Assembly (NCBI RefSeq): GCF_029255545.1
Contig: NZ_JANLJJ010000025.1
Location: forward strand, 1 to 37,463
Reading direction: 5' to 3'
DNA length: 37,463 nt
From: Ferrovibrio sp.
GTDB lineage: Bacteria; Pseudomonadota; Alphaproteobacteria; Ferrovibrionales; Ferrovibrionaceae
Shown here: piece after piece, positions 1,288 to 32,310 of the stretch
How the letters are laid out: every line of letters starts with the position of its first letter
How positions within the stretch are numbered: the stretch's first letter is position 1
The notes under the pieces: model-generated
Told to the model about the DNA's origin: nothing
The model's input: the letters and a program-made list of their open reading frames with translations, nothing else
The model's database searches: none
Position numbers and translations under genes: made by a program

Positions 1288-3762
1288 TTACGTGCCTTCT
1301 GCGGCGATGGCGGCCAATTCCTGGCGCAGGTCTGCGATCAGGTTGCGACTGACCGCCAGATTGGCCGCCTCGCGGTCGAGTACCAGGGTAAAAGCCTTCA
1401 GTTTAAGCGTCTTGCGGTCGACCAGATCGTCCTTGTCTCGACCCAGGGCGGAATCGCAGACGATGTCGATCAGGCGATCGATGGCATGCAGCCGGCCCCA
1501 GAGATAATCATTCTCGCGATGGGCGCGGCTGAAGAAACCGCCAAAACGGCCAAGATTGACGCCTTTCAGCGTGTTGCCGCGGCGGACCGTCACGGCATCC
1601 TCCGGGCTGATGCGGTCAATCTTGATCTCGTTGAATTCCCCGAGGTCGCGCCAGTTGGTGATGGTGAAGGTCAGAACGTCCCAGAACGGAAAGCCAATAT
1701 AACTGACCAGCAGGTCACGCCGCGCCGCCGGGCTCCAGTCTTCCGGCGCCAGCTGGGCAAACAGGGCATCGAGTCCGTCGGTAGTGCGGTCGAGGTCGAT
1801 GTCGCGCCCGAGGCTGTCGATCAGGCCGTCGATGGCGGCGAGGTTCGCGCCGGCAAAAGCGATGGCATCCTGCTCGATATGCTCGGCCTGCTGCAGGTCG
1901 ATGCGGCGGAAGAACAGCGTCTTGGTTTTCTCTTTGGTCTCTGCGGCAATACCATTGCCGCCATCGAAACGGCGCAGGGCTTCCTGTGCTTCATACAAGG
2001 CCCGTTTCATGCCATCCAGCGTCTCGGCCTGCAGGCCGCGATGCTCGGTATCGCCCAGTTTGCCGTATAACTGGTTCAGCCTCTGCACCAGGAAACGAAC
2101 GCGGCGCTGGCGGAACGAGATGTCGAAGCGCAGCAGAAAACGCACCCAGGCCGGCAGCGCATGCGTCGGCGTGCCGGGCGGCGCGCGTTCGAACCGGGTG
2201 GCGGTATGACAAACCTGCCGGTCCTGCGCCCAGTGCAGCAGGGCGCGGCGCGTCCACTGAGCTTCGGCTGAACGCTCACCATAGCCACAGGCATTACAGA
2301 CCAGCTTGCCGACAAAATCGAGCACGGCGCCGAGCTTCAGGCGCACATAGCCCTCATAGGCAAAGCCGGCTTCGCGCACGGCGCGGTCGCTGGCCTGCAT
2401 GCGCCAGAGCCGGATTTCGCTTTCGCTTAAGGCGGCATCTAGGTTTTGCGGCGCACTTTCGGCCACCAGCTGGGCGATCTGCGGCTGGGTAGCGTCGATC
2501 ACGCCACGCAGGTGGCGCACGCGTTCATTGAAGCGGCTGACCCAGATCAGTTCGTCGGCAATCGGCTCGTTACGCGGAATGTCACTCAGCGCGCCTTTCA
2601 GCACGCGGAAAAAGCCCGGCACGCGGCCGGTCGGCGGCGGCGGCGGTCGCATCGGCTGTGGATCGATGTAAACCAGGCGGCGGTCGACCTCGCGGTAGGC
2701 CGGCCGGCCACGGATCGCTTTCATGGCGGCTGCGAACGGCTTGTTGGCCAGTACGCCGCCATCGACGAAGGAGGTCAGTTCCGGATCGAGGCCGGCTTTC
2801 AGGTAATCGGCGAAATTGCGCTGCACGAAACCGGCCTTGCTGTCCCAGTGCCGACCCTGTTCGGTCAGCAGACGATCAACATCACCCAACTGGGCAGGCG
2901 GGAAGGCACCCGGAAAAGCCGAGGTGGCGCGGCCGGCAAAGGCCAAGCCGGGCGCTTCGACACGGGTAAAGTCGGACTGTTCCTCGCCACCCGACCAGCG
3001 GCGATAGGCAAAGCGCAGCACATGGCGGTGCTCGCGATCGCGGATGAATGGCGGATCGTGAATCTGGATATGTTGTTGGAAGCCGTAGAAATCCGTCAGC
3101 GTGACCAGCAGGTCGAGCGCCAGATTGGTCGGCATCAGCGAAGCGCCCGGATGATCCGGTTCCCCCATCGCTTCGAGGCCGGCGAGCAATTGACGCAGCA
3201 GATGCTGGCCGTCAAAGGGCGGCTGGAACCAACGTGAGCGGGTGAACAGGGAAAGCTTGTCGAGGATTTCCGCATCGCCCAGCATCAGTCGGCCAAAGCG
3301 TGAGCGCGAGGCCAGCCACAACACCGGTCGCATATAGGCCTTGCTCCACGGATTGGCGCGTTTCTCGGGATCGAGCAGGCGCGAGACATCGGCCTCATTG
3401 AGCCAGAGGTTGCGGAAATGGTCGATGCGCAGGTCATGCGCCAGGGCGCGACCGAGGATGATGCCGTTGATGCCGCCGGCCGAGGCGCCGGCAATCACGT
3501 CCACCACCACGCGCAGGTCGACATGCTTGCCCAATTCCTGCAGCAGCTCGAAATAGGCATGCTCGCTGTCGTATTCGGTGTCGCCGGGCCGGATATTGTC
3601 GGCAAAGCGCGCGGTATCGCGGGCGGCGCCCTTGGGCTGGGCATGATAGGCGCGCGAGGCGCGTACCAGCTTGAGAATTTCCTTCACCACGCCATGCATG
3701 TAGATGGCAAGCGACACGCCACCGAAGCAGACCAGAGCGAGGCGTAGTTCTTTTTCCTGCAA
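1288..3762 (-). CDS. Patatin-like phospholipase (large, DUF3376-type patatin-related protein)
   Basis: Predicted acyl hydrolase using a patatin Ser-Asp dyad. The core is obvious: oxyanion-type CFGGVSLAIYMHGV at the N-terminus, nucleophile elbow GASAGG with Ser94, and DGG with Asp334 in FVDGGVLANKPF. After the patatin domain come about 450 residues without a familiar motif, as in the long 'patatin-related protein' family that carries a DUF3376 tail (about 820 aa here). I prefer the TTG at 3762 because GGGGGA lies about 9 nt upstream and the patatin domain begins directly after it. A longer frame opens with TTG at 3849, overlapping the stop of the preceding hydrolase as TTGA, which could allow translational coupling but has no Shine-Dalgarno. 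No signal peptide or membrane segment is visible, so it is probably cytosolic. The natural lipid substrate is unknown. Confidence 0.88.
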   Translation of the reverse strand: MQEKELRLALVCFGGVSLAIYMHGVVKEILKLVRASRAYHAQPKGAARDTARFADNIRPGDTEYDSEHAYFELLQELGKHVDLRVVVDVIAGASAGGINGIILGRALAHDLRIDHFRNLWLNEADVSRLLDPEKRANPWSKAYMRPVLWLASRSRFGRLMLGDAEILDKLSLFTRSRWFQPPFDGQHLLRQLLAGLEAMGEPDHPGASLMPTNLALDLLVTLTDFYGFQQHIQIHDPPFIRDREHRHVLRFAYRRWSGGEEQSDFTRVEAPGLAFAGRATSAFPGAFPPAQLGDVDRLLTEQGRHWDSKAGFVQRNFADYLKAGLDPELTSFVDGGVLANKPFAAAMKAIRGRPAYREVDRRLVYIDPQPMRPPPPPTGRVPGFFRVLKGALSDIPRNEPIADELIWVSRFNERVRHLRGVIDATQPQIAQLVAESAPQNLDAALSESEIRLWRMQASDRAVREAGFAYEGYVRLKLGAVLDFVGKLVCNACGYGERSAEAQWTRRALLHWAQDRQVCHTATRFERAPPGTPTHALPAWVRFLLRFDISFRQRRVRFLVQRLNQLYGKLGDTEHRGLQAETLDGMKRALYEAQEALRRFDGGNGIAAETKEKTKTLFFRRIDLQQAEHIEQDAIAFAGANLAAIDGLIDSLGRDIDLDRTTDGLDALFAQLAPEDWSPAARRDLLVSYIGFPFWDVLTFTITNWRDLGEFNEIKIDRISPEDAVTVRRGNTLKGVNLGRFGGFFSRAHRENDYLWGRLHAIDRLIDIVCDSALGRDKDDLVDRKTLKLKAFTLVLDREAANLAVSRNLIADLRQELAAIAAEGT

Positions 3763-3845
3763 GTGGATATTTCCCCCGAGCGGTCTTTGGCGCGGTCCTG
3801 AAACCGAATCCGCCCGCCTGAGTGTGCCTTGGGCGGGCCTGTCAC

Positions 3846-4808
3846 TCAAGCGGCAGTTGGGTGCAGCAGGCTATCGGCCGCTTCGTCCAGGCAGGCATCG
3901 CCCTCCGGCATCAGGCCGGCGAAGTTGGGCCAGGCATGCGGCAGGCCATGCCACAGTCGCAAGCGGGTCGATATGCCGGCTGCGTGGGCCCGCTCGGCCA
4001 GCCGCAATGTATCGTCGCGCAGCAGTTCGCTGTCACTGACATGCAGCACCAGCGGCGGCAGGCCGGCAAGATCACCATAGAGTGGCGATAGCAGGGGGTC
4101 GTTTTTTGCGGTCTCGCCAGCATAGAGGTCGGCGGCGAAGCGAATCTGGGTCGGCATGAACCAGGCGCAGCGCTCGATATTTTCGGTGAATGCCGCGCCG
4201 CTACAGGCCAGATCCGTCCAAGGCGAGAACAACGCGGCGGCGGCAGGTAGCGGCAGATTCTGCTGCCTGCAGGCCAGCATCAGCGCCAGCGCCAAGCCGC
4301 CGCCAGCGGAATCGCCAGCCAGCCAGATGCGGTCGGGCCGATAGCCTTCGACCAGCAACCAGCGCCAGGCCCGCAGCGCATCTTCCAGCGCGGCCGGGTA
4401 GGGATGCTCCGGGGCCAACCGGTAATCGAGGGCGAAGACCGCGACCCCAAGCCGCCGGGCCAGCCTGGCCGTGATGGCGCGGTGGGTGCGGGGGGCGCCG
4501 CAGATATAACCGCCGCCATGAAGATAGAGCAGGGCGCGACCGCGGCGGGGCTTGTCGGGACGCAGCCACTCGCCGCGCAGCCAGTCGCCGTCCTGCATCA
4601 GCTTGATACGTTCGGCCTTCACCCCGGCCGGCAGCCGGGAACGGGTGAAGGCGAACATTAGGCCGCGCAGCAGCGGAATATCCATGCGGGTGATTTTTCT
4701 CGGTTTGACCAGCCGGCGCAGGCCGCGCGCGATCAGCCGGGCCTGCAGGCTGGGCGTATCGTGCAAATGGCCATGGCGGTGACCGACACTGGGGTGGCGA
4801 CGCAGCAT
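3846..4808 (-). CDS. Alpha/beta hydrolase, hormone-sensitive-lipase (HSL) family
   Basis: Predicted carboxylesterase/lipase of 320 aa. It has the HSL oxyanion motif HGGGY at 97-101, the nucleophile elbow GDSAGG with Ser167, a likely catalytic Asp265 in ELLRDD and His291 in HGLPHAWPNF. That is a complete triad and typical length. The first 50 residues are a basic helical cap region without a signal peptide. It lies just upstream of the patatin-like gene on the same strand; depending on the patatin start the two are separated by 83 nt or overlap by 4 nt, so they are probably one lipolytic operon. It is divergent from ribA, with starts about 100 nt apart. Substrate preference (short-chain esters are usual for the family) is inference. 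Confidence 0.88.
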   Translation of the reverse strand: MLRRHPSVGHRHGHLHDTPSLQARLIARGLRRLVKPRKITRMDIPLLRGLMFAFTRSRLPAGVKAERIKLMQDGDWLRGEWLRPDKPRRGRALLYLHGGGYICGAPRTHRAITARLARRLGVAVFALDYRLAPEHPYPAALEDALRAWRWLLVEGYRPDRIWLAGDSAGGGLALALMLACRQQNLPLPAAAALFSPWTDLACSGAAFTENIERCAWFMPTQIRFAADLYAGETAKNDPLLSPLYGDLAGLPPLVLHVSDSELLRDDTLRLAERAHAAGISTRLRLWHGLPHAWPNFAGLMPEGDACLDEAADSLLHPTAA

Positions 4809-10961: not shown

Positions 10962-12338
10962 GTGACGGCTCAGCGCCTGCGCGACTGGCTGGCGGCCCTC
11001 GCGGTTTATCGCGACCGGCGGGTGCTGGCAATTGCCATACTCGGCTTCGCCTCCGGCTTGCCGCTTGCGCTGACCGGCCAGACCCTGCAGGCATGGCTGA
11101 CCGAATCAGGCGCTTCGCTCAAGGATATCGGCCTGTTTGCCCTGGTTGGCGTGCCTTACACGCTGAAGTTCGTCTGGGCGCCGCTGGTCGACCGCCTGCC
11201 GTTGCCGCTGCTGACCCGCTGGTTCGGCCGCCGGCGCGGCTGGCTGGTTTTTGCGCAGGGATTGCTGATGGCGGCCATCGCGGCGCTGGCATTCAGCAAT
11301 CCGGGGCAGGCGCTGGCCTTCACCGCGCTCTGCGCTGTGGCGGTGGCTTTTGCTTCCGCCACGCAGGATATCGTCATCGATGCCTGGCGCGTGGAAATCC
11401 TGGAGGAACGCCAGCTGGCCGCTGGCGCCGCCGCCATCGTGTTCGGCTATCGCATCGGCATGCTGGTTTCCTCGGCGGGCGCGCTGTATCTCGCCACCGT
11501 TTTCGCCTGGCCGCTGGTCTATCTCGCCATGGCAGCGATCCTGGTGATCGGCGTCGTCACCGTGTTTCTGGTTGGCGAACCGATGGCTAGGCCGCGAGGC
11601 GACGCCGAACGCCGGTTTGCCGAAGCCCAGGCCTGGCTGGCGGCGCGACCGCATCTCTCAGGAGCAACGGCCGCCGTGATGGCTTGGCTCTATGCCAGCG
11701 TCGCCGGACCCTTCCTGCAATTCATGAGCCGCAAGGGCTGGGTCGGTATCCTGCTTTTCGTCATGCTGTTCAAGCTGGGTGACAGCCTGGCTGGCGTGTT
11801 GGCCACCAGCTTCTATCTCAATCTCGGCTTTACCAAGGCCGAGATCGCCGAGGTCGGCAAGCTTTACGGTTTCGCGGCTACCATGCTAGGCCTGTTCCTT
11901 GGCGGCTGGCTGATGCAGGCGGTCGGTCTGTATCGTGCGTTGTGGGTTTGCGGCATCCTGCAGATGGTGTCTAACCTGCTGTTCGCCGTGCTGGCAATGC
12001 GTGGCCATGATCTGTGGTTTCTGGCGTTTACTGTCGGCGTGGAGAATCTGGCCAGCGGCATGGGAACGGCGGCACTGGTTGCCTATCTTTCGGCGCTCTG
12101 CGACATCGCCTATACCGCCACGCAATACGCCTTGCTTTCATCGCTCACCGCGGTGGCGCGTACGGTGCTGTCGTCTTACGCGGGCTTCATGGCCGAATCG
12201 CTTGGCTGGCCGTTATTTTTCCTGGCCACCACGGTGGCTGCCCTGCCCGGGCTGGCCCTGCTGGCCTGGCTGACCCGCCGTGGCGCGGCGACGCGAATCG
12301 TCGAGAGGCGCCCCGGAATCGCATTGGCAGAAGACTGA
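10962..12338 (+). CDS. ampG: AmpG-like major facilitator permease
   Basis: Inner-membrane transporter of the AmpG family, which imports GlcNAc-anhydroMurNAc muropeptides for peptidoglycan recycling. The 458-aa protein has about 12 hydrophobic segments. The family N-terminus is clear: LGFASGLPLALTGQTLQAWLTESG, then GVPYTLKFVWAPLVDR, RRGWLVFAQ, and SATQDIVIDAWRVEIL in the first half. A GTG start 3 nt after the stop of the propionyl-CoA synthetase gene implies translational coupling in one operon, which is biochemically unexpected. Other AmpG-related MFS carriers transport different solutes, so muropeptide import is probable rather than certain. A 7-bp hairpin without a T-run follows the stop (12340-12358). 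Confidence 0.82.
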   Translation: MTAQRLRDWLAALAVYRDRRVLAIAILGFASGLPLALTGQTLQAWLTESGASLKDIGLFALVGVPYTLKFVWAPLVDRLPLPLLTRWFGRRRGWLVFAQGLLMAAIAALAFSNPGQALAFTALCAVAVAFASATQDIVIDAWRVEILEERQLAAGAAAIVFGYRIGMLVSSAGALYLATVFAWPLVYLAMAAILVIGVVTVFLVGEPMARPRGDAERRFAEAQAWLAARPHLSGATAAVMAWLYASVAGPFLQFMSRKGWVGILLFVMLFKLGDSLAGVLATSFYLNLGFTKAEIAEVGKLYGFAATMLGLFLGGWLMQAVGLYRALWVCGILQMVSNLLFAVLAMRGHDLWFLAFTVGVENLASGMGTAALVAYLSALCDIAYTATQYALLSSLTAVARTVLSSYAGFMAESLGWPLFFLATTVAALPGLALLAWLTRRGAATRIVERRPGIALAED

Positions 12339-12457
12339 TCTGCGGCGGCAGGCCGCAGCCGATCTGTTACAGGTCCGTTCTCCTGCTCCCCCATATCTGG
12401 GATAGCCATGCCCGGCTTGGCCACAACATATTTTATTGCGGACGCGATTTAGTAGAT

Positions 12458-12486
12458 GTGTCATATATTTGACATGTTTGCGTCAC
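12458..12486 (+). promoter_or_regulatory. Candidate PHO box (three 11-bp-phased repeats) upstream of olsB
   Basis: GTGTCAT (12458-12464), TTGACAT (12469-12475) and GCGTCAC (12480-12486) are heptamers spaced 11 bp apart, matching the PhoB pattern CTGTCAT-N4-CTGTCAT at about 6, 5 and 5 of 7 positions. The first spacer is ATAT, as the PHO consensus prefers. They abut the probable -10 of the olsB promoter. Phosphate-starvation control of olsB is established in Sinorhizobium meliloti, which makes the placement credible. Confidence 0.6.
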
Positions 12487-12496
12487 AGTGTATAGC
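12469..12496 (+). promoter_or_regulatory. Sigma-70-like promoter of olsB
   Basis: TTGACA (12469-12474) and TATAGC (12491-12496) are separated by 16 bp. The -35 hexamer is a perfect match but lies inside the second PHO-box heptamer. The implied start near 12503 leaves a very short leader before the ATG at 12511. Confidence 0.55.
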
Positions 12497-12510
12497 CATA
12501 GTTGGAACCT

Positions 12511-13386
12511 ATGAACATGCAACTGCCTCTCTCCGTATCTACGGCTGTACCAGCATCTCGCTCTCCGCGCAGCGGCTGGCAATGCGTGTCTGCTGATGGA
12601 CGTTTCGAGGTCCGTCTGACCCGCAGCCCCGACGACATCACGGCGGCGCAGCGTCTGCGCTATCAGGTTTTTTATGAGGAAATGGCGGCCGAGCCCTCGC
12701 CGGAAATGGCGAAGCTGGGCCTGGATTTTGACCAGTTCGATCGGTTGTGCGACCACCTAATGGTGTTCGATCGCACCCGTCCCGAAGGCGAACAGGCGGT
12801 CGGCACCTATCGTCTTCTGCGCCGCAGCGTGGCCGAAATGCATGGCGGTTTCTATTCGGCCTCGGAGTATGATCTGCAGCCGATGCTGGATTATGTTGGC
12901 GGCAGTGGCGGCCTGCTCGAACTCGGCCGTTCCTGCGTGCATCGCGATTATCGCACCAATGCGACGATCCAGTTGCTGTGGCGAGGCATTTCCACCTATG
13001 TCGCCGATCACAATATCAGCTTCATGTTTGGCTGCGCCTCCTTTCCGGGCACCGACCCGCAGCAGCATGCCCTGGCGCTCAGCTACCTGTATGCCCATCA
13101 CCTGCCGCCGCAGGAATGGCGTGTACGCGCCCTGCCGGAGCGCTACGAGCCGATGAACCTGATCCCGGCCGACCAGATCAATCCGCGCGCCGCGCTGCAT
13201 GCCCTGCCGCCGCTGATCAAGGCCTATCTGCGGCTTGGCGCCTATATTGGCGCCGGCGCGGTGGTTGACCGCCAGTTCGGCACCACGGACGTGTTCATCC
13301 TGCTTCCGGTTGAACGGATCGCGCCGAAATACCAGAATCGTTTCTCGGCCGATGAAGGTCTGGTGCAGACCGAATACCACGCCTGA
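12511..13386 (+). CDS. olsB: L-ornithine N(alpha)-acyltransferase (ornithine lipid synthesis)
   Basis: OlsB transfers a 3-hydroxyacyl group from acyl carrier protein to the alpha-amino group of ornithine, making lyso-ornithine lipid for phosphorus-free membrane lipids. The 291-aa product has the GNAT/hemolysin-like OlsB signatures: AQRLRYQVFYEEMAAE, DHLMVFD, VGTYRLLRR, YDLQPML, LLELGRSCVHRDYR, FGCASFPGTDP and LPPLIKAYLRLGA with DRQFGTTDVFI. The ATG at 12511 is followed by a second at 12517; GGAAC at 12504 would suit the second better, so the start may be 6 nt later. The partner O-acyltransferase OlsA is not adjacent. Candidate PHO-box repeats and promoter lie immediately upstream, and a strong terminator follows, so it is probably monocistronic. 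Confidence 0.9.
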   Translation: MNMQLPLSVSTAVPASRSPRSGWQCVSADGRFEVRLTRSPDDITAAQRLRYQVFYEEMAAEPSPEMAKLGLDFDQFDRLCDHLMVFDRTRPEGEQAVGTYRLLRRSVAEMHGGFYSASEYDLQPMLDYVGGSGGLLELGRSCVHRDYRTNATIQLLWRGISTYVADHNISFMFGCASFPGTDPQQHALALSYLYAHHLPPQEWRVRALPERYEPMNLIPADQINPRAALHALPPLIKAYLRLGAYIGAGAVVDRQFGTTDVFILLPVERIAPKYQNRFSADEGLVQTEYHA

Positions 13387-13412
13387 GCGGCGGACAATCC
13401 GGATTTGATCAG

Positions 13413-13439
13413 GCGGCGCCGGTTGTCGGCGCCGCTTTT
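13413..13439 (+). terminator. Intrinsic terminator of olsB
   Basis: A perfect 9-bp stem GCGGCGCCG/CGGCGCCGC with a 5-nt loop is followed by TTTTG and further Ts. It begins 26 nt after the olsB stop and before the acyl-CoA ligase gene. Confidence 0.85.
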
Positions 13440-13505
13440 GTTTGCGTAACATCCTGCTCAGAGGAAACGACCGGATAAACCCGGGTAATCATGGGCGGGA
13501 CGGGG

Positions 13506-20264: not shown

Positions 20265-20426
20265 GGTGTTTCTCCTCCCGTTGCTGGCACGGGCCGGTCA
20301 ACGTATTCGTTAATTTTAGGCAGCCACGCGAGCAGGAAACCAGTGCCGGGATTGGCGCATCGGGATTACAGATTTGTAACTAATTGATATAACTAAATAA
20401 AAACCTGTCGATCCGCACTCATAATG

Positions 20427-20436
20427 TGTACGTACA
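20427..20436. promoter_or_regulatory. Short palindrome in the chemoreceptor upstream region
   Basis: TGTACGTACA is a perfect 10-bp palindrome in the 221-nt gap between the divergent oxidoreductase and chemoreceptor genes. An AT-rich patch (20364-20403) with TATAAC lies just upstream and is the likeliest promoter area, although the -35 is poor. A small GC hairpin (CCGGC/GCCGG) lies between the palindrome and the start codon. Confidence 0.35.
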
Positions 20437-20485
20437 AGCTGCACTGCCGGCGCCCCGCCGGACGACAGCTAAATGGAGAATATCA

Positions 20486-22339
20486 ATGTTCCAGTTTTCG
20501 GGTGCGTCGGCGAGCAGCGATCTGCGGGCCCAGTTCGACGCCATCAACAAGGCGCAGGCGGTGATCGAATTCACCCTGGACGGTAAAATCCTGCATGCCA
20601 ACGAGAATTTCCTCAAGGCGCTGGGTTACACACTGGATGAGATCAAGGGGCAGCATCACAGCCTGTTCGTCGAGCCAGCCTATCGCGCCAGCGCCGAGTA
20701 TCGCGAATTCTGGGCCAAGTTGGGCCGCGGCGAATATGACGCCAACCAGTACAAGCGCATCGGCAAGGGCGGCAAGGAAGTCTGGATCCAGGCCAGCTAC
20801 AACCCGATCTTCGACAAGCGCGGCAAGCCTTACAAGGTGGTGAAGTTCGCCACCGACGTCACCGAGCAGAAGATGCAACTGGCCAATTACGAGGGCCAGC
20901 TTGCCGCCATCAACAAGGCGCAGGCGGTGATCGAATTCACCCTGGACGGTAAAATCCTGCATGCCAACGAGAATTTCCTCAAGGCGCTGGGTTACACACT
21001 GGATGAGATCAAGGGGCAGCATCACAGCCTGTTCGTCGAGCCAGCCTATCGCGCCAGCGCCGAGTATCGCGAATTCTGGGCCAAGTTGGGCCGCGGCGAA
21101 TATGACGCCAACCAGTACAAGCGCATCGGCAAGGGCGGCAAGGAAGTCTGGATCCAGGCCAGCTACAATCCAATCGTGGATGCCAATGGCCGGCCCTACA
21201 AGGTGGTGAAATACGCTACCGACATCACGGCGCAGACCAAGGCGGCCCAGATGATGCAACTGGCCGTGCAGCAGGTGCAGGCCGTGGTGGAGGCCACCAA
21301 GGCCAATGATCTGACGCAGCGTATCGACCTGGAGGGCAAGGGTGGCGAAATCCGTTCGCTCTGCGAAGGCGTCAATGACTTGGTCGAGGCGATGAGCGAC
21401 ATCATCGGCGGCATCCGCGAAGCGTCTGAAACAATCGCGGCGGCCTCGGCCGAGATTTCCACTGGCAGCCAGGACTTGGCCAGCCGCACGGAATCGCAGG
21501 CGGCCAGCATTGAGGAAACCGCCGCGTCGATGCACGAGGTCACCACGACGGTGAAGCAGAATGCCGACAATGCCCAGGCCGCCAACCAGTTGGCCACGGC
21601 GGCACGCGATACGGCAGAAAAGGGTGGCAATGTGGTGCGCGATGCCGTGGTCGCAGTCAACGAAATCGAAAGCAGCGCGCAGAAGATTTCCGACATCATC
21701 GGTCTGATCGACGAGATCGCCTTCCAGACCAACCTGCTGGCGCTGAACGCCTCGGTGGAAGCCGCCCGCGCCGGCGAGGCTGGCAAGGGCTTTGCCGTGG
21801 TGGCGCAGGAAGTGCGCGCCCTGGCGCAGCGCTCGGCCAATGCCAGCAAGGACATCAAGGCGCTGATCCAGACCTCGAACAGCCAGGTCAAGAGCGGCGC
21901 GGCTTTGGTCAACCAGGCCGGCACGTCGCTGACCGAAATTGTCGGCGCGATCAAGAAGGTGAGCGATATCGTGGCCGAGATCGCCGCTGCTAGCCGCGAA
22001 CAGGCCTCGGGTCTGGAGCAGATCAACACGGCGGTTGGCCAGATGGACGAGATGACCCAGCGCAATGGCGCCCTGGTGGAAGAAACCTCGGCCTCGGCCC
22101 AGTCGCTGTCCAACCAAGCCGAGGAGCTGGCGACCCTGGTGCAGCGCTACAAGGTCAAAGGCCAGGGCCATCTGGCGCGCGCCGCTGCCGCGCCGGCCGC
22201 CCGGCCGTTGTCCAAGATGGCGTCGCTCAAGGTGGTGGCCGAAAAGCGCCCATCGGCGAAGCCCGTTGTGGTGAAGTCCGCGGCCGCACAGGGCAATACC
22301 ATGGCGAAAGCCGAGGCCGATACCTGGGAGCAGTTCTGA
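20486..22339 (+). CDS. Soluble methyl-accepting chemotaxis protein with two PAS domains
   Basis: Cytoplasmic chemoreceptor of 617 aa with no signal peptide or transmembrane segment. Two PAS domains (about residues 18-135 and 140-257) each carry [17 protein letters not shown] and [11 protein letters not shown]; they probably sense an internal ligand or redox state. A HAMP-like linker follows, then the long coiled-coil signalling domain. Its CheA/CheW-binding tip [22 protein letters not shown] lies near 405-430, flanked by Glu/Gln-rich methylation helices. The C-terminus ends DTWEQF, resembling the xWxxF docking pentapeptide for CheR/CheB. The start ATG has GGAG 10 nt upstream. Overlap with cheW (stop TGA and start ATG share a base) implies coupled synthesis. 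The stimulus is unknown; BdlA/Aer-type cytosolic receptors are the nearest analogues. Confidence 0.92.
20539..21168 (+). repeat. Perfect 264-bp duplication within the chemoreceptor gene
   Basis: Bases 20539-20802 recur without a difference at 20905-21168, a period of 366 bp (122 codons). Each copy encodes the core of one PAS domain (residues about 19-105 and 141-227). Flanking PAS segments are clearly diverged, for example [16 protein letters not shown] against [16 protein letters not shown]. Identity extends through synonymous positions, which implies recent gene conversion or duplication. Confidence 0.95.
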
Positions 22340-28769: not shown

Positions 28770-30158
28770 TTAATCCTGCCGCAGGCTATGTAGCGGAAAA
28801 TGCAGTACGAATTCCGCGCCGCCGCCGGGTGCGTCGCCAACCGTAACGCGACCGCCATGGCCGCGCATGGTTTCGGCTACGATCGCCAGCCCCAATCCGG
28901 CGCCCGGATGCTGCCGGTTCCGGCCGCGCCAGAAGCGTTCGAAAATCTGTTCCCGCTGCTCCACCGGTACGCCGGGACCATGGTCGCGCACGGCGATGCT
29001 ACCATCGGGGGAAACCAGGACCATGACCTCGGTGCCCGGCGCCGTATGGGCGATGGCGTTCTCGACCAGATTACGCAGGGCGTTTTCCAGCGCGTCGGCC
29101 GAGGCTTCTACCAGCACCGGCTTTGAGCTGGCCGTCAGCGCCACGGATTTGCCGGCGCCGATGGCCAGCGGCGCGAGAAAGGCGACCACGGTTTCCGCCG
29201 CCGGATTCAGATCAAGGGTTTCGAATTTCAGCAAAGCGCCTTCCAGGCGCGATACCTGCAGTAGTTGGGCGACGAGCCGGTTCATGCGGCCGATATCACC
29301 GGCCAGCAGGCGAATATCCGGACCATCCTGCAATTCAGCCAGTCGCGCCGTCAGCACCGCCAGCGGCGTGCGCAATTCATGGGCGGCATTGGCGGTGAAG
29401 CGGCGCTGCATTTCGAAGCCCTGCTCCAGGCGGTCGAGCGCGCTGTTAATCGCCAGTGGCAGCGGCAGGATTTCCTCGGCCACGCCTTCGGTGGGGAGGC
29501 GCAGATTACGGGTTTGCGGACCAATCTGCCGTGCGCGCAGCGACAGCTCCTTGATCGGACGCAGGCTGGTGCGAATGGTCCAGATCGCGATGAACAGGGC
29601 GGCAGCCAGCACCAGGGGCAGAGTCCAGCCGATCCGCTTGGCAAACTCGCTCAACAGCGTGTCGATAAATACATCGGGATGGATGCGACCCTGGGCGACG
29701 AGGATATAACCGGCCGGCAATCCGGCGGTATCGAGCATGGCGTAGTAGGAGGATTCCTGGCCGTCGGCATCGAGCAGCCGGAAAACGGTTCTGGCCGGTA
29801 CGCCGGAGCCAAGCGACAGGCCGGAAAAACTGCGTCGTGCCTTCTCGCTGGAGGCTGCAATGATCTGGCCCTGCGGGTCGAGCACGGCATACATGTAGCC
29901 GTCACCGGACTCGTGATAGGCCTGCTGCAGGGACGGCGGCAATTCCACGGTCAGGGCGCCATCGCGGACCTGCGTATGCTTGGCGATCTGGCTGGCCTGA
30001 ACCTGCAGCCCGACATCGTCGAGATCATCCAGCGCGAACCAGGCATACTGGCTGATCACTAAGGCCACCAGCAGCATCGATCCGAGCAGCACGAAACCCA
30101 GCCGCCAGGCCAGTCGGGCCTGCAGCGACCAGCGGCGATCCTGCTTTTCCGCCGTCAC
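28770..30158 (-). CDS. Sensor histidine kinase (QseC/PmrB/TctE-like)
   Basis: Inner-membrane sensor of 462 aa. Two transmembrane segments (about 21-42 and 178-196) flank a periplasmic sensor region of about 135 residues. A HAMP linker is followed by the phosphorylation site His260 in NAAHELRTPLAVL. The ATPase domain has NLVENAIAHTAPG (N box), RDHGPGVP (G1), FERFWRG (F box) and GAGLGLAIVAE (G2), all intact. The GTG start overlaps the response regulator stop as GTGA, so the pair is translationally coupled. The stimulus cannot be read from the sequence; related QseC, PmrB and TctE kinases respond to host signals, cationic peptides or metals, and tricarboxylates. Confidence 0.9.
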   Translation of the reverse strand: MTAEKQDRRWSLQARLAWRLGFVLLGSMLLVALVISQYAWFALDDLDDVGLQVQASQIAKHTQVRDGALTVELPPSLQQAYHESGDGYMYAVLDPQGQIIAASSEKARRSFSGLSLGSGVPARTVFRLLDADGQESSYYAMLDTAGLPAGYILVAQGRIHPDVFIDTLLSEFAKRIGWTLPLVLAAALFIAIWTIRTSLRPIKELSLRARQIGPQTRNLRLPTEGVAEEILPLPLAINSALDRLEQGFEMQRRFTANAAHELRTPLAVLTARLAELQDGPDIRLLAGDIGRMNRLVAQLLQVSRLEGALLKFETLDLNPAAETVVAFLAPLAIGAGKSVALTASSKPVLVEASADALENALRNLVENAIAHTAPGTEVMVLVSPDGSIAVRDHGPGVPVEQREQIFERFWRGRNRQHPGAGLGLAIVAETMRGHGGRVTVGDAPGGGAEFVLHFPLHSLRQD

Positions 30159-30832
30159 GCCGCCGTCTCCGCCAGCATGTAGCCGACGCCACGTATGGTA
30201 TGGATTTCGCCGGAGAAACCGCCGCCGGCCAGTTTGCGGCGCAGGCGATGCAGCAGCACCTCAAGCGAATTCGGCGTTACTTCGTCGTCGAAGCCATAAA
30301 CGCGCTCCTCCAGGTGCCGTTTCGGCACCACGCGGCCGGCGCGGCGCAGCAGATTTTCCAGCAACGTCATCTCGCGGGCGGTCAGGGCCAGCAGCCTGCC
30401 ATCCACCATCACTTCACGCCCGGCGGTATCGAAGCGGATATTGCCGGCCTCCAACACTACGCCAAGCGCGCCGCTTGGCCGTCGCAGCAGCGCTTTCAGC
30501 CGGGCTATCAGTTCAGGCATGGCGAAGGGCTTGAGCAGGTAATCGTCGGCGCCGGTGTTCAGGCCGGTGACGCGGTCTTCCACGCCGTCGCGTGCGGTCA
30601 GAATCAGCACGGGCGTGGTGTCCCGGCCGCCGCGCAGGTCGCGCAGGATGGCGAGGCCGTCTTCATCGGGCAGGCCGAGATCGAGCACCACTGCGTCGTA
30701 ACGTGAGCCCGAGAGCGCGCCGCGGGCTTCATCCGCCGTCCCGACGGCATCAGTCGTGAAGCCGGCACGGGTCAGGCTGCGCTGCACGAGGTCGAGCAGG
30801 CTGGTTTCGTCTTCGATCAGCAGCAGGCGCAT
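30155..30832 (-). CDS. OmpR/PhoB-family response regulator
   Basis: DNA-binding partner of the adjacent kinase, 225 aa. The receiver has acidic Glu7/Asp8, phosphoacceptor Asp51 in VVLDLGLPDEDG, Thr79 and Lys101 in LLKPF, all conserved. The C-terminal winged helix shows LTAREMTLLENLL and NSLEVLLHRLRRKL with IHTIRGVGYML. I chose the ATG at 30832, since MRLLLIEDE is the canonical start; the open frame upstream has no family similarity. It is the first gene of the RR-kinase-LtaS-like transferase order, resembling pmrAB and qseBC. No obvious direct-repeat regulator site or promoter stands out in the 305-nt region 30833-31137 on this strand. Confidence 0.92.
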   Translation of the reverse strand: MRLLLIEDETSLLDLVQRSLTRAGFTTDAVGTADEARGALSGSRYDAVVLDLGLPDEDGLAILRDLRGGRDTTPVLILTARDGVEDRVTGLNTGADDYLLKPFAMPELIARLKALLRRPSGALGVVLEAGNIRFDTAGREVMVDGRLLALTAREMTLLENLLRRAGRVVPKRHLEERVYGFDDEVTPNSLEVLLHRLRRKLAGGGFSGEIHTIRGVGYMLAETAA

Positions 30833-31083
30833 GATGACACAGAGGCGGGAATCCCAGGTTCGGCAGGCGGCGGGTCGGCCAGCATCGGCAGGCGGGCTTA
30901 CCGGCAGCTTACGATCATTGATTTTGCCCAACATGGCCCCGGCCTGTCGCAAATTGAAGATGACAGTCTGGTAATTTGGCGATTTATCGCTGTTCTTCGG
31001 AGGCGTTTGCAGAATTTTCATAGTCGAAAAAGCCGGTCTGCGGCGAAATGGCCATTGCGCCCGTGCCCCGACTCCGAGTAGAA

Positions 31084-31137
31084 GGGCGGCGGGACACGCC
31101 CCCCCAACGGGGCGCTTACTATCTGGAAGGATAGACA
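31084..31137 (+). ncRNA. Probable serC leader RNA with mutually exclusive hairpins
   Basis: A GC-rich leader ends at the serC start. GGGCG (31084-31088) can pair with CGCCC (31097-31101), but CGCCCC (31097-31102) can instead pair with GGGGCG (31109-31114), so the two stems compete. A third stem CTATC/GATAG (31119-31123 with 31130-31134) holds the Shine-Dalgarno GGAAGGA in its loop and 3' arm. Position and size fit the alphaproteobacterial serC leader motif (Corbino et al. 2005; Rfam serC). The match to its consensus is from memory, not checked. The rest of 30833-31083 shows no clear promoter. Confidence 0.62.
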
Positions 31138-32310
31138 ATGACCAAGCCTGCCGCGCGCCCTATTCGTGCGCATTTTTCCTCCGGCCCCTGCGCCAAGCGC
31201 CCTGGCTGGACCCCTGAAATTCTGAAAAACGCCCTGGTCGGCCGCTCGCATCGCTCGAAAGAGGGCAAGGCCCGTCTGGTCGAGGCGATCGAGCTGCATC
31301 GCAAGATTCTCGGCATCCCGGCCGATTACCGGATCGGCATTGTGCCGGCCTCCGACACTGGCGCCGTCGAGATGGCGCTGTGGTCGCTGCTCGGCCCACG
31401 CGGCGTCGATGTGTTGGCCTGGGAAAGCTTCGGCTCCGGCTGGGGTGGCGACATCTCCAAGGAGCTCAAGCTCAAGGATGTCCGCACGCTCAAGGCCGGC
31501 TATGGCGAAATCCCTGACCTGAAACAGGTAGACTGGACTCGCGACGTGGTCTTCACCTGGAATGGCACGACTTCGGGCGTGAAGGTGCCCAACGGTGACT
31601 GGATCGCCGACGGCCGCGAAGGCCTGTCGATCTGCGACGCCACCTCGGCGGTGTTCGCTATGGACCTGCCATGGTCCAAGCTGGATGTCACCACCTGGTC
31701 GTGGCAGAAGGCGACCGGCGGCGAGGCGGCACATGGCATGATCGTGCTGAGCCCGCGCGCCGTGCAGCGCCTGGAGACCTATACCCCGGCCTGGCCGTTG
31801 CCGAAGATCTTCCGCATGGCCAAGGACGGTAAGCTGATCGAGGGCATTTTCAAGGGCGAGACGATCAACACGCCTTCCATGCTGTGCGTCGAGGACATCA
31901 TCGACGCCCTGAAATGGGGCGAGAGCGTCGGCGGCCTGAAGGGTATGATCGCCCGTTCGGAAGCCAATCTGAAGGCGATCGCCGACTGGGCCGCCAAGAC
32001 GCCGTGGGTCGGCTTCCTGGCCGCTGACCCGGCCGTGCGTTCCAACACCTCGATCTGCCTCAAGGTGGTCGATCCCTGGTTCACCGCTTTGGGGCCGAAG
32101 GACCAGGAAGCGGCGGCCAAGCAGATCGCCGCCCTGCTGGAGAAGGAAGGCGTCGCGCTGGATATCGCCGCTTATCGCGATGCTCCGCCGGGCCTGCGCA
32201 TCTGGGGTGGCGCCACGGTGGAAACCGCCGATGTGGCGGCGCTCTGCCCCTGGCTGGACTGGGCTTTCGCCGAGGTGAAAGCTACCTACAAGCCGGCTGC
32301 GGCCGCCTGA
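31138..32310 (+). CDS. serC: Phosphoserine aminotransferase
   Basis: Converts 3-phosphohydroxypyruvate and glutamate to phosphoserine and 2-oxoglutarate in serine synthesis, and also works in pyridoxal phosphate synthesis in many bacteria. The 390-aa protein belongs to the alphaproteobacterial class V form: [12 protein letters not shown] at the start, [18 protein letters not shown] near 68, the pyridoxal phosphate Lys191 in [16 protein letters not shown], and [18 protein letters not shown]. The start is set by the GGAAGGA ribosome-binding site, which lies inside a leader hairpin. It is followed by a strong terminator and then serA, so the two pathway genes may be expressed in different amounts. 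Confidence 0.93.

Follow-up and report, generated by a model that had tools for sequence, protein, structure and literature searches.

Upstream of olsB in Ferrovibrio sp., three heptamers repeated at an 11-bp phase are, on sequence grounds, almost certainly sites at which the phosphate-starvation regulator PhoB binds. The preferred reading, to which a probability of roughly 0.88 is given, is that they form an operator through which PhoB~P would switch on olsB at low phosphate, with a predicted -10 element, CATAGT, 10 bp downstream. The initial annotation had likewise proposed a PhoB operator coupling olsB to phosphate starvation, accompanied by a -10 element (TATAGC) only 4 bp from the last repeat. 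The coupling is supported by the PhoB encoded in the genome, by similar arrays at pstS, phnC and a Na/Pi symporter gene and by conservation in relatives, whereas the close -10 is not.

The olsB gene and its upstream array

The array occupies the gap between a gene for an AmpG-type transporter, which ends at 12338, and the olsB ATG in the window, the whole stretch of 37,463 nt that was analysed (Table 1). The heptamers are separated by 4-bp spacers and TATAGC begins 4 bp past the third of them, GCGTCAC, so that the repeats, their spacing and the hexamer are exact to the base as first described. A Pho box is defined as 11-nt direct repeats, and PhoB contacts sigma-70 (PMC4415409). When at least two 11-nt direct-repeat units resembling CTGTCAT, with seven conserved bases each, are taken to constitute such a box, three units are found here.

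Table 1. Features of the olsB region, numbered from the first base of the window
Feature	Position	Strand	Basis or remark
R0, eroded fourth half-site ATTTAGT	12447..12453	+	genus alignment and E. coli-matrix scan
R1, putative PhoB half-site GTGTCAT	12458..12464	+	GTCA invariant across genus
R2, putative PhoB half-site TTGACAT	12469..12475	+	TGAC invariant across genus
R3, putative PhoB half-site GCGTCAC	12480..12486	+	conservation weak
TATAGC, -10 of the initial annotation	12491..12496	+	absent from 5/9 congeners
CATAGT, preferred predicted PhoB-dependent -10	12497..12502	+	10 bp past R3; GATAGT in 8/9 congeners
olsB, ornithine N-acyltransferase, 291 aa	12511..13386	+	NF052555 above cut-off; Pfam Acetyltransf_5
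Terminator-like hairpin and T-rich tail after olsB	13411..13444	+	weak: shuffles often give such matches too

The identification of the downstream gene as olsB was also borne out, its product scoring 338.5 bits against a cut-off of 320 with the curated NCBIfam model NF052555. Translation could alternatively start at a second ATG, at 12517. Given the terminator-like hairpin downstream, olsB probably forms a transcription unit of its own. The candidate for its partner OlsA is encoded on another contig (G000:C11), where the best model, NF052553, gives 269.9 bits, below its cut-off of 300. A matrix scan of the stretch around this likely OlsA gene found no high-scoring array comparable to that of olsB, so that any control by PhoB may be limited to the first step of ornithine-lipid synthesis.

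Elsewhere in the window, positions 1288-3849 of the minus strand encode a large protein that combines a patatin-like phospholipase domain with a DUF3376 part. Positions 20426-22339 of the plus strand encode a chemoreceptor-type protein with two nearly identical tandem PAS domains, an apparent recent duplication.

The array in the genome and in relatives

Simple searches discriminate poorly. A consensus of two heptamers with 3 mismatches allowed gave 183 matches in the genome against 63 for the reversed control, which is weak evidence. With a matrix built from six E. coli half-sites, no 11-bp-phase match in the window scores above the olsB site (18.6); a 15-bp phase, however, also peaks at 18.6, so that the 11-bp phase is not singled out and this matrix alone is no proof of a site. 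Of 200 shuffles of the sequence upstream of olsB, none scores as high as the array. A PhoB matrix search, the check put forward in the initial annotation, favours the site more clearly. The matrix used, of 45 columns, was trained on eleven promoters from the family, those of pstS, phnC and Na/Pi genes, with olsB left out. Across both strands of 184 kb of this genome the olsB site comes out on top at 30.9, and the highest-scoring location that belongs neither to olsB nor to a training site reaches 14.5. As the 184 kb included many stretches picked for their resemblance to Pho boxes, the comparison is a stricter one.

The full pattern, three phased repeats followed by ATA at +11, was built from olsB and pstS and is circular for both. 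It matches the genome 7 times, compared with 0 for the reversed control, and 19 genomes 19 times, compared with 1, also picking up olsB in G001, G002, G005, G006 and G011 beyond the source genome. The third-best match, which is not circular, lies directly upstream of phnC (TIGR02315 above cut-off). Two further matches, at a carboxyl-transferase-like gene and a LysR-like gene, were set aside as these are not obviously phosphate genes. G001 and G006 share a common Pho-like pattern match, TGAAAAATCTCCGTCACC-GAATGACTTATA, which precedes a gene of the Bax inhibitor-1 family (PF01027; L204 and L206, positions 1501-1542).

The promoters of the same genome resemble that of olsB in having three phased half-sites, 10 bp and then a -10 element. 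That of pstS reads CTGTCAT-ATTC-CTGCAAA-CTAT-CCGTCAT-10 bp-TATACC and differs in its long leader and in its -10 hexamer, and that of phnC reads CCGTCGC-4-CCGCAAT-4-CTGTCAC-10-TATAGC (G000:C36:60901-60942; L165 421-470). Three phased repeats are also present at the Na/Pi symporter gene, where a -10 at +10 is not recognisable; its G005 counterpart has TAAACT at that place. The phnC TATAGC stands only 5 bp before an ATG, and G005 places the start further on; the phnC transcript may be leaderless like that predicted for olsB, or a later start codon may be used. The pstS gene itself is of the TIGR00975 type in this genome (G000:C91, L155) and in G002:C44 (L159, L207), and TIGR02136-like in most other congeners (L172-L180), which suggests exchange of the phosphate transporter within the genus; the TIGR00975 model matched few relatives. 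Both types have phased repeats.

Among the response regulators of the genome, one passes the PhoB equivalog model (352 bits), the runner-up reaching 201 bits. Its gene lies on contig C4 after ORFs that, identified by eye, read as pstC, pstA, pstB and phoU. Contig C91 carries the beginning of pstS, the end of which forms the start of C4, and a histidine-kinase ORF reading as phoR. The DNA-recognition segment (E. coli 193-203 and 217-219), which includes the residues that touch DNA in the PhoB-DNA structure, is identical to that of E. coli PhoB; the receiver-domain aspartates and lysine are identical as well. Between the phoR-like gene and pstS lies a gap (L155 1000-1250) that is long and strikingly AT-rich despite the GC-rich genome.

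In relatives, the expected conservation of the heptamers holds for R1 and R2 but is weak for R3. None of the ten genomes of the genus departs from the cores GTCA of R1 and TGAC of R2, while R3 varies between GCATCAT, CCTCAAC and CGCAACA types. Invariant columns account for 8 of 14 in R1 and R2 against 4 of 96 upstream (Fisher p 3e-6, columns treated as independent), in a test which excluded near-identical pairs and to which the genus supplies about seven distinct promoter sequences. The count of three repeats, accurate for this genome, understates the array of most congeners, which have a further half-site (TTTTAAT or CTTTCAC) 11 bp upstream of R1 that is eroded here to R0; 3 of its 7 columns are invariant. 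In other genera of the family, phased arrays precede olsB as CCGTCAC-4-CTGACTT-4-CTGTAAC in L011, as CCGTAAC-4-CTGCCAT-4-TCGTCAC in L012 and likewise in L014, L016, L019 and L021, and none was found in the olsB region scanned in L013 and L015. A three-repeat array is significant (p <= 0.01) in 23 of 99 olsB upstream regions, many of them within the family, and most regions outside it are without one; these figures are no census, and as gene starts in distant relatives are uncertain, absence is weak evidence.

Position of the -10 element and alternative readings

In the E. coli K-12 record, the -10 elements of phoA and pstS sit 10 bp past the last heptamer. The same spacing occurs at pstS and phnC of this genome, at G002 pstS and at G005 Na/Pi, and in most pstS promoters of relatives the fourth and last repeat is followed at 10 bp by a TAnnnT hexamer. 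Across Ferrovibrionaceae sites, the mean -10 score is positive at offset 10 only (2.7), all other offsets falling below -2. At olsB, offset 10 is occupied by CATAGT here and by GATAGT in all congeners except L009 (GATGGT), giving the E. coli-type arrangement of a -10 hexamer 10 bp past the last half-site, with a second candidate at offset 4 in this genome. The latter, TATAGC, gives way to TAAGAC in L004 and to TGGCGG in L005-L008, so five of nine congeners, with three distinct sequences among them, lack it. Since the +10 hexamer is conserved and TATAGC is lost in these congeners, the 4-bp distance is most likely the result of choosing the less conserved hexamer. The unusual geometry that the initial annotation had noted thus finds no support: 6 bp further on, a hexamer restores the 10 bp of the E. 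coli phoA and pstS promoters, and the PhoB-dependent -10 is probably not TATAGC.

TATAGC may nonetheless serve as a second -10, with the TTGACA in R2, which could double as a -35, as its partner, and a sigma-70 promoter could in this way coexist with PhoB control. Two promoters would then overlap on one array, a basal PhoB-independent start from TTGACA/TATAGC and a PhoB~P-driven start from CATAGT 6 bp further, an arrangement that is unlikely. Somewhat more doubtful is PhoB control in which TATAGC itself acts as the -10 at the 4-bp distance. By the family matrix TATAGC is the better hexamer here (5.4 versus 3.7 for CATAGT), it is the apparent -10 of phnC in the same genome and in L009 it scores above the +10 hexamer; however, the +10 hexamer is intact in eight of the nine congeners while TATAGC is missing from the majority, nearly all other Pho promoters examined show 10 bp, and a 6-bp shift would presumably place PhoB on about the opposite face of the helix relative to the -10.

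Highly improbable is a plain sigma-70 promoter that does not depend on PhoB, made up of TTGACA (12469-12474), a 16-bp spacer and TATAGC, with the other repeats incidental. Its -35 would be a perfect match and its spacing acceptable. Such a promoter would, however, have no need of R1, which is conserved to the same degree as R2; its -10 is lost in the congeners named above, L005 and L006 carry ATGACA, and the same array recurs at pstS and phnC. Least probable of all is binding by another OmpR-family response regulator instead of PhoB. Direct repeats near 10-11 bp are recognised by such proteins too, and about ten full-length relatives are encoded in the genome, including one in the window at 30155-31138; yet a single regulator passes the PhoB cut-off, the repeats follow the CTGTCAY pattern of E. 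coli PhoB sites, and the other genes bearing the array encode phosphate and phosphonate transporters.

Predicted regulation and its meaning for Ferrovibrionaceae

From these comparisons we infer PhoB binding, activation, the start site and a phosphate response at olsB. Under the preferred reading, in which CATAGT is the -10, PhoB protomers would bind head-to-tail on the 11-bp-phased half-sites, and bound PhoB would replace the normal -35 contact and bring RNA polymerase to CATAGT, as at E. coli phoA and pstS. Judged from the spacing, this -10 would place the start at about 12509-12511, at the ATG or no more than about two bases from it, and the olsB mRNA would therefore be leaderless or nearly so. 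Upstream of the first ATG, a GGA could act for the second one, and the conservation of ATAGTCGGA could be due in part to a ribosome-binding site for that codon; such use of the GGA is disfavoured, as a start at 12509 or later would leave it untranscribed. OlsB, as the first enzyme of ornithine-lipid synthesis, would then supply a phosphorus-free lipid to substitute for phospholipid.

The E. coli phoA and pstS promoters are alike in carrying 11-bp-phased CTGTCAT-type half-sites with the -10 exactly 10 bp past the last. They differ in the number of half-sites, two at phoA and four at pstS compared with three and one eroded at Ferrovibrio olsB, and in the distance from the -10 to the start codon, which is 46-50 bp in E. 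coli and 8 bp here. A putative Pho box before olsB together with phosphate-dependent ornithine lipids has been described in Agrobacterium (PMC3972451), and Pho boxes of olsB have been predicted from rhizobial boxes in Burkholderia sensu lato (PMC7814305), both papers citing earlier work in Sinorhizobium. The comparison with these organisms, which belong to a different family, covers the gene, the regulator and the proposed purpose, all of which are the same. The ten best-ranked literature matches for Ferrovibrio with ornithine lipid or phosphate starvation include no Ferrovibrio paper. The olsB site adds a family to the known list of Pho boxes before olsB and is no new kind of system.

If the two overlapping promoters were real, short-leader and leaderless olsB mRNAs would both be made, and phosphate could alter the mode of translation as well as the amount. 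The preferred reading, with CATAGT as the PhoB-dependent -10, removes an apparent exception in promoter geometry and would extend PhoB control of ornithine-lipid synthesis to Ferrovibrionaceae. It would also provide a simple Pho-promoter rule for this family, phased repeats followed by 10 bp and a -10 element, which could be used to list its Pho regulon.
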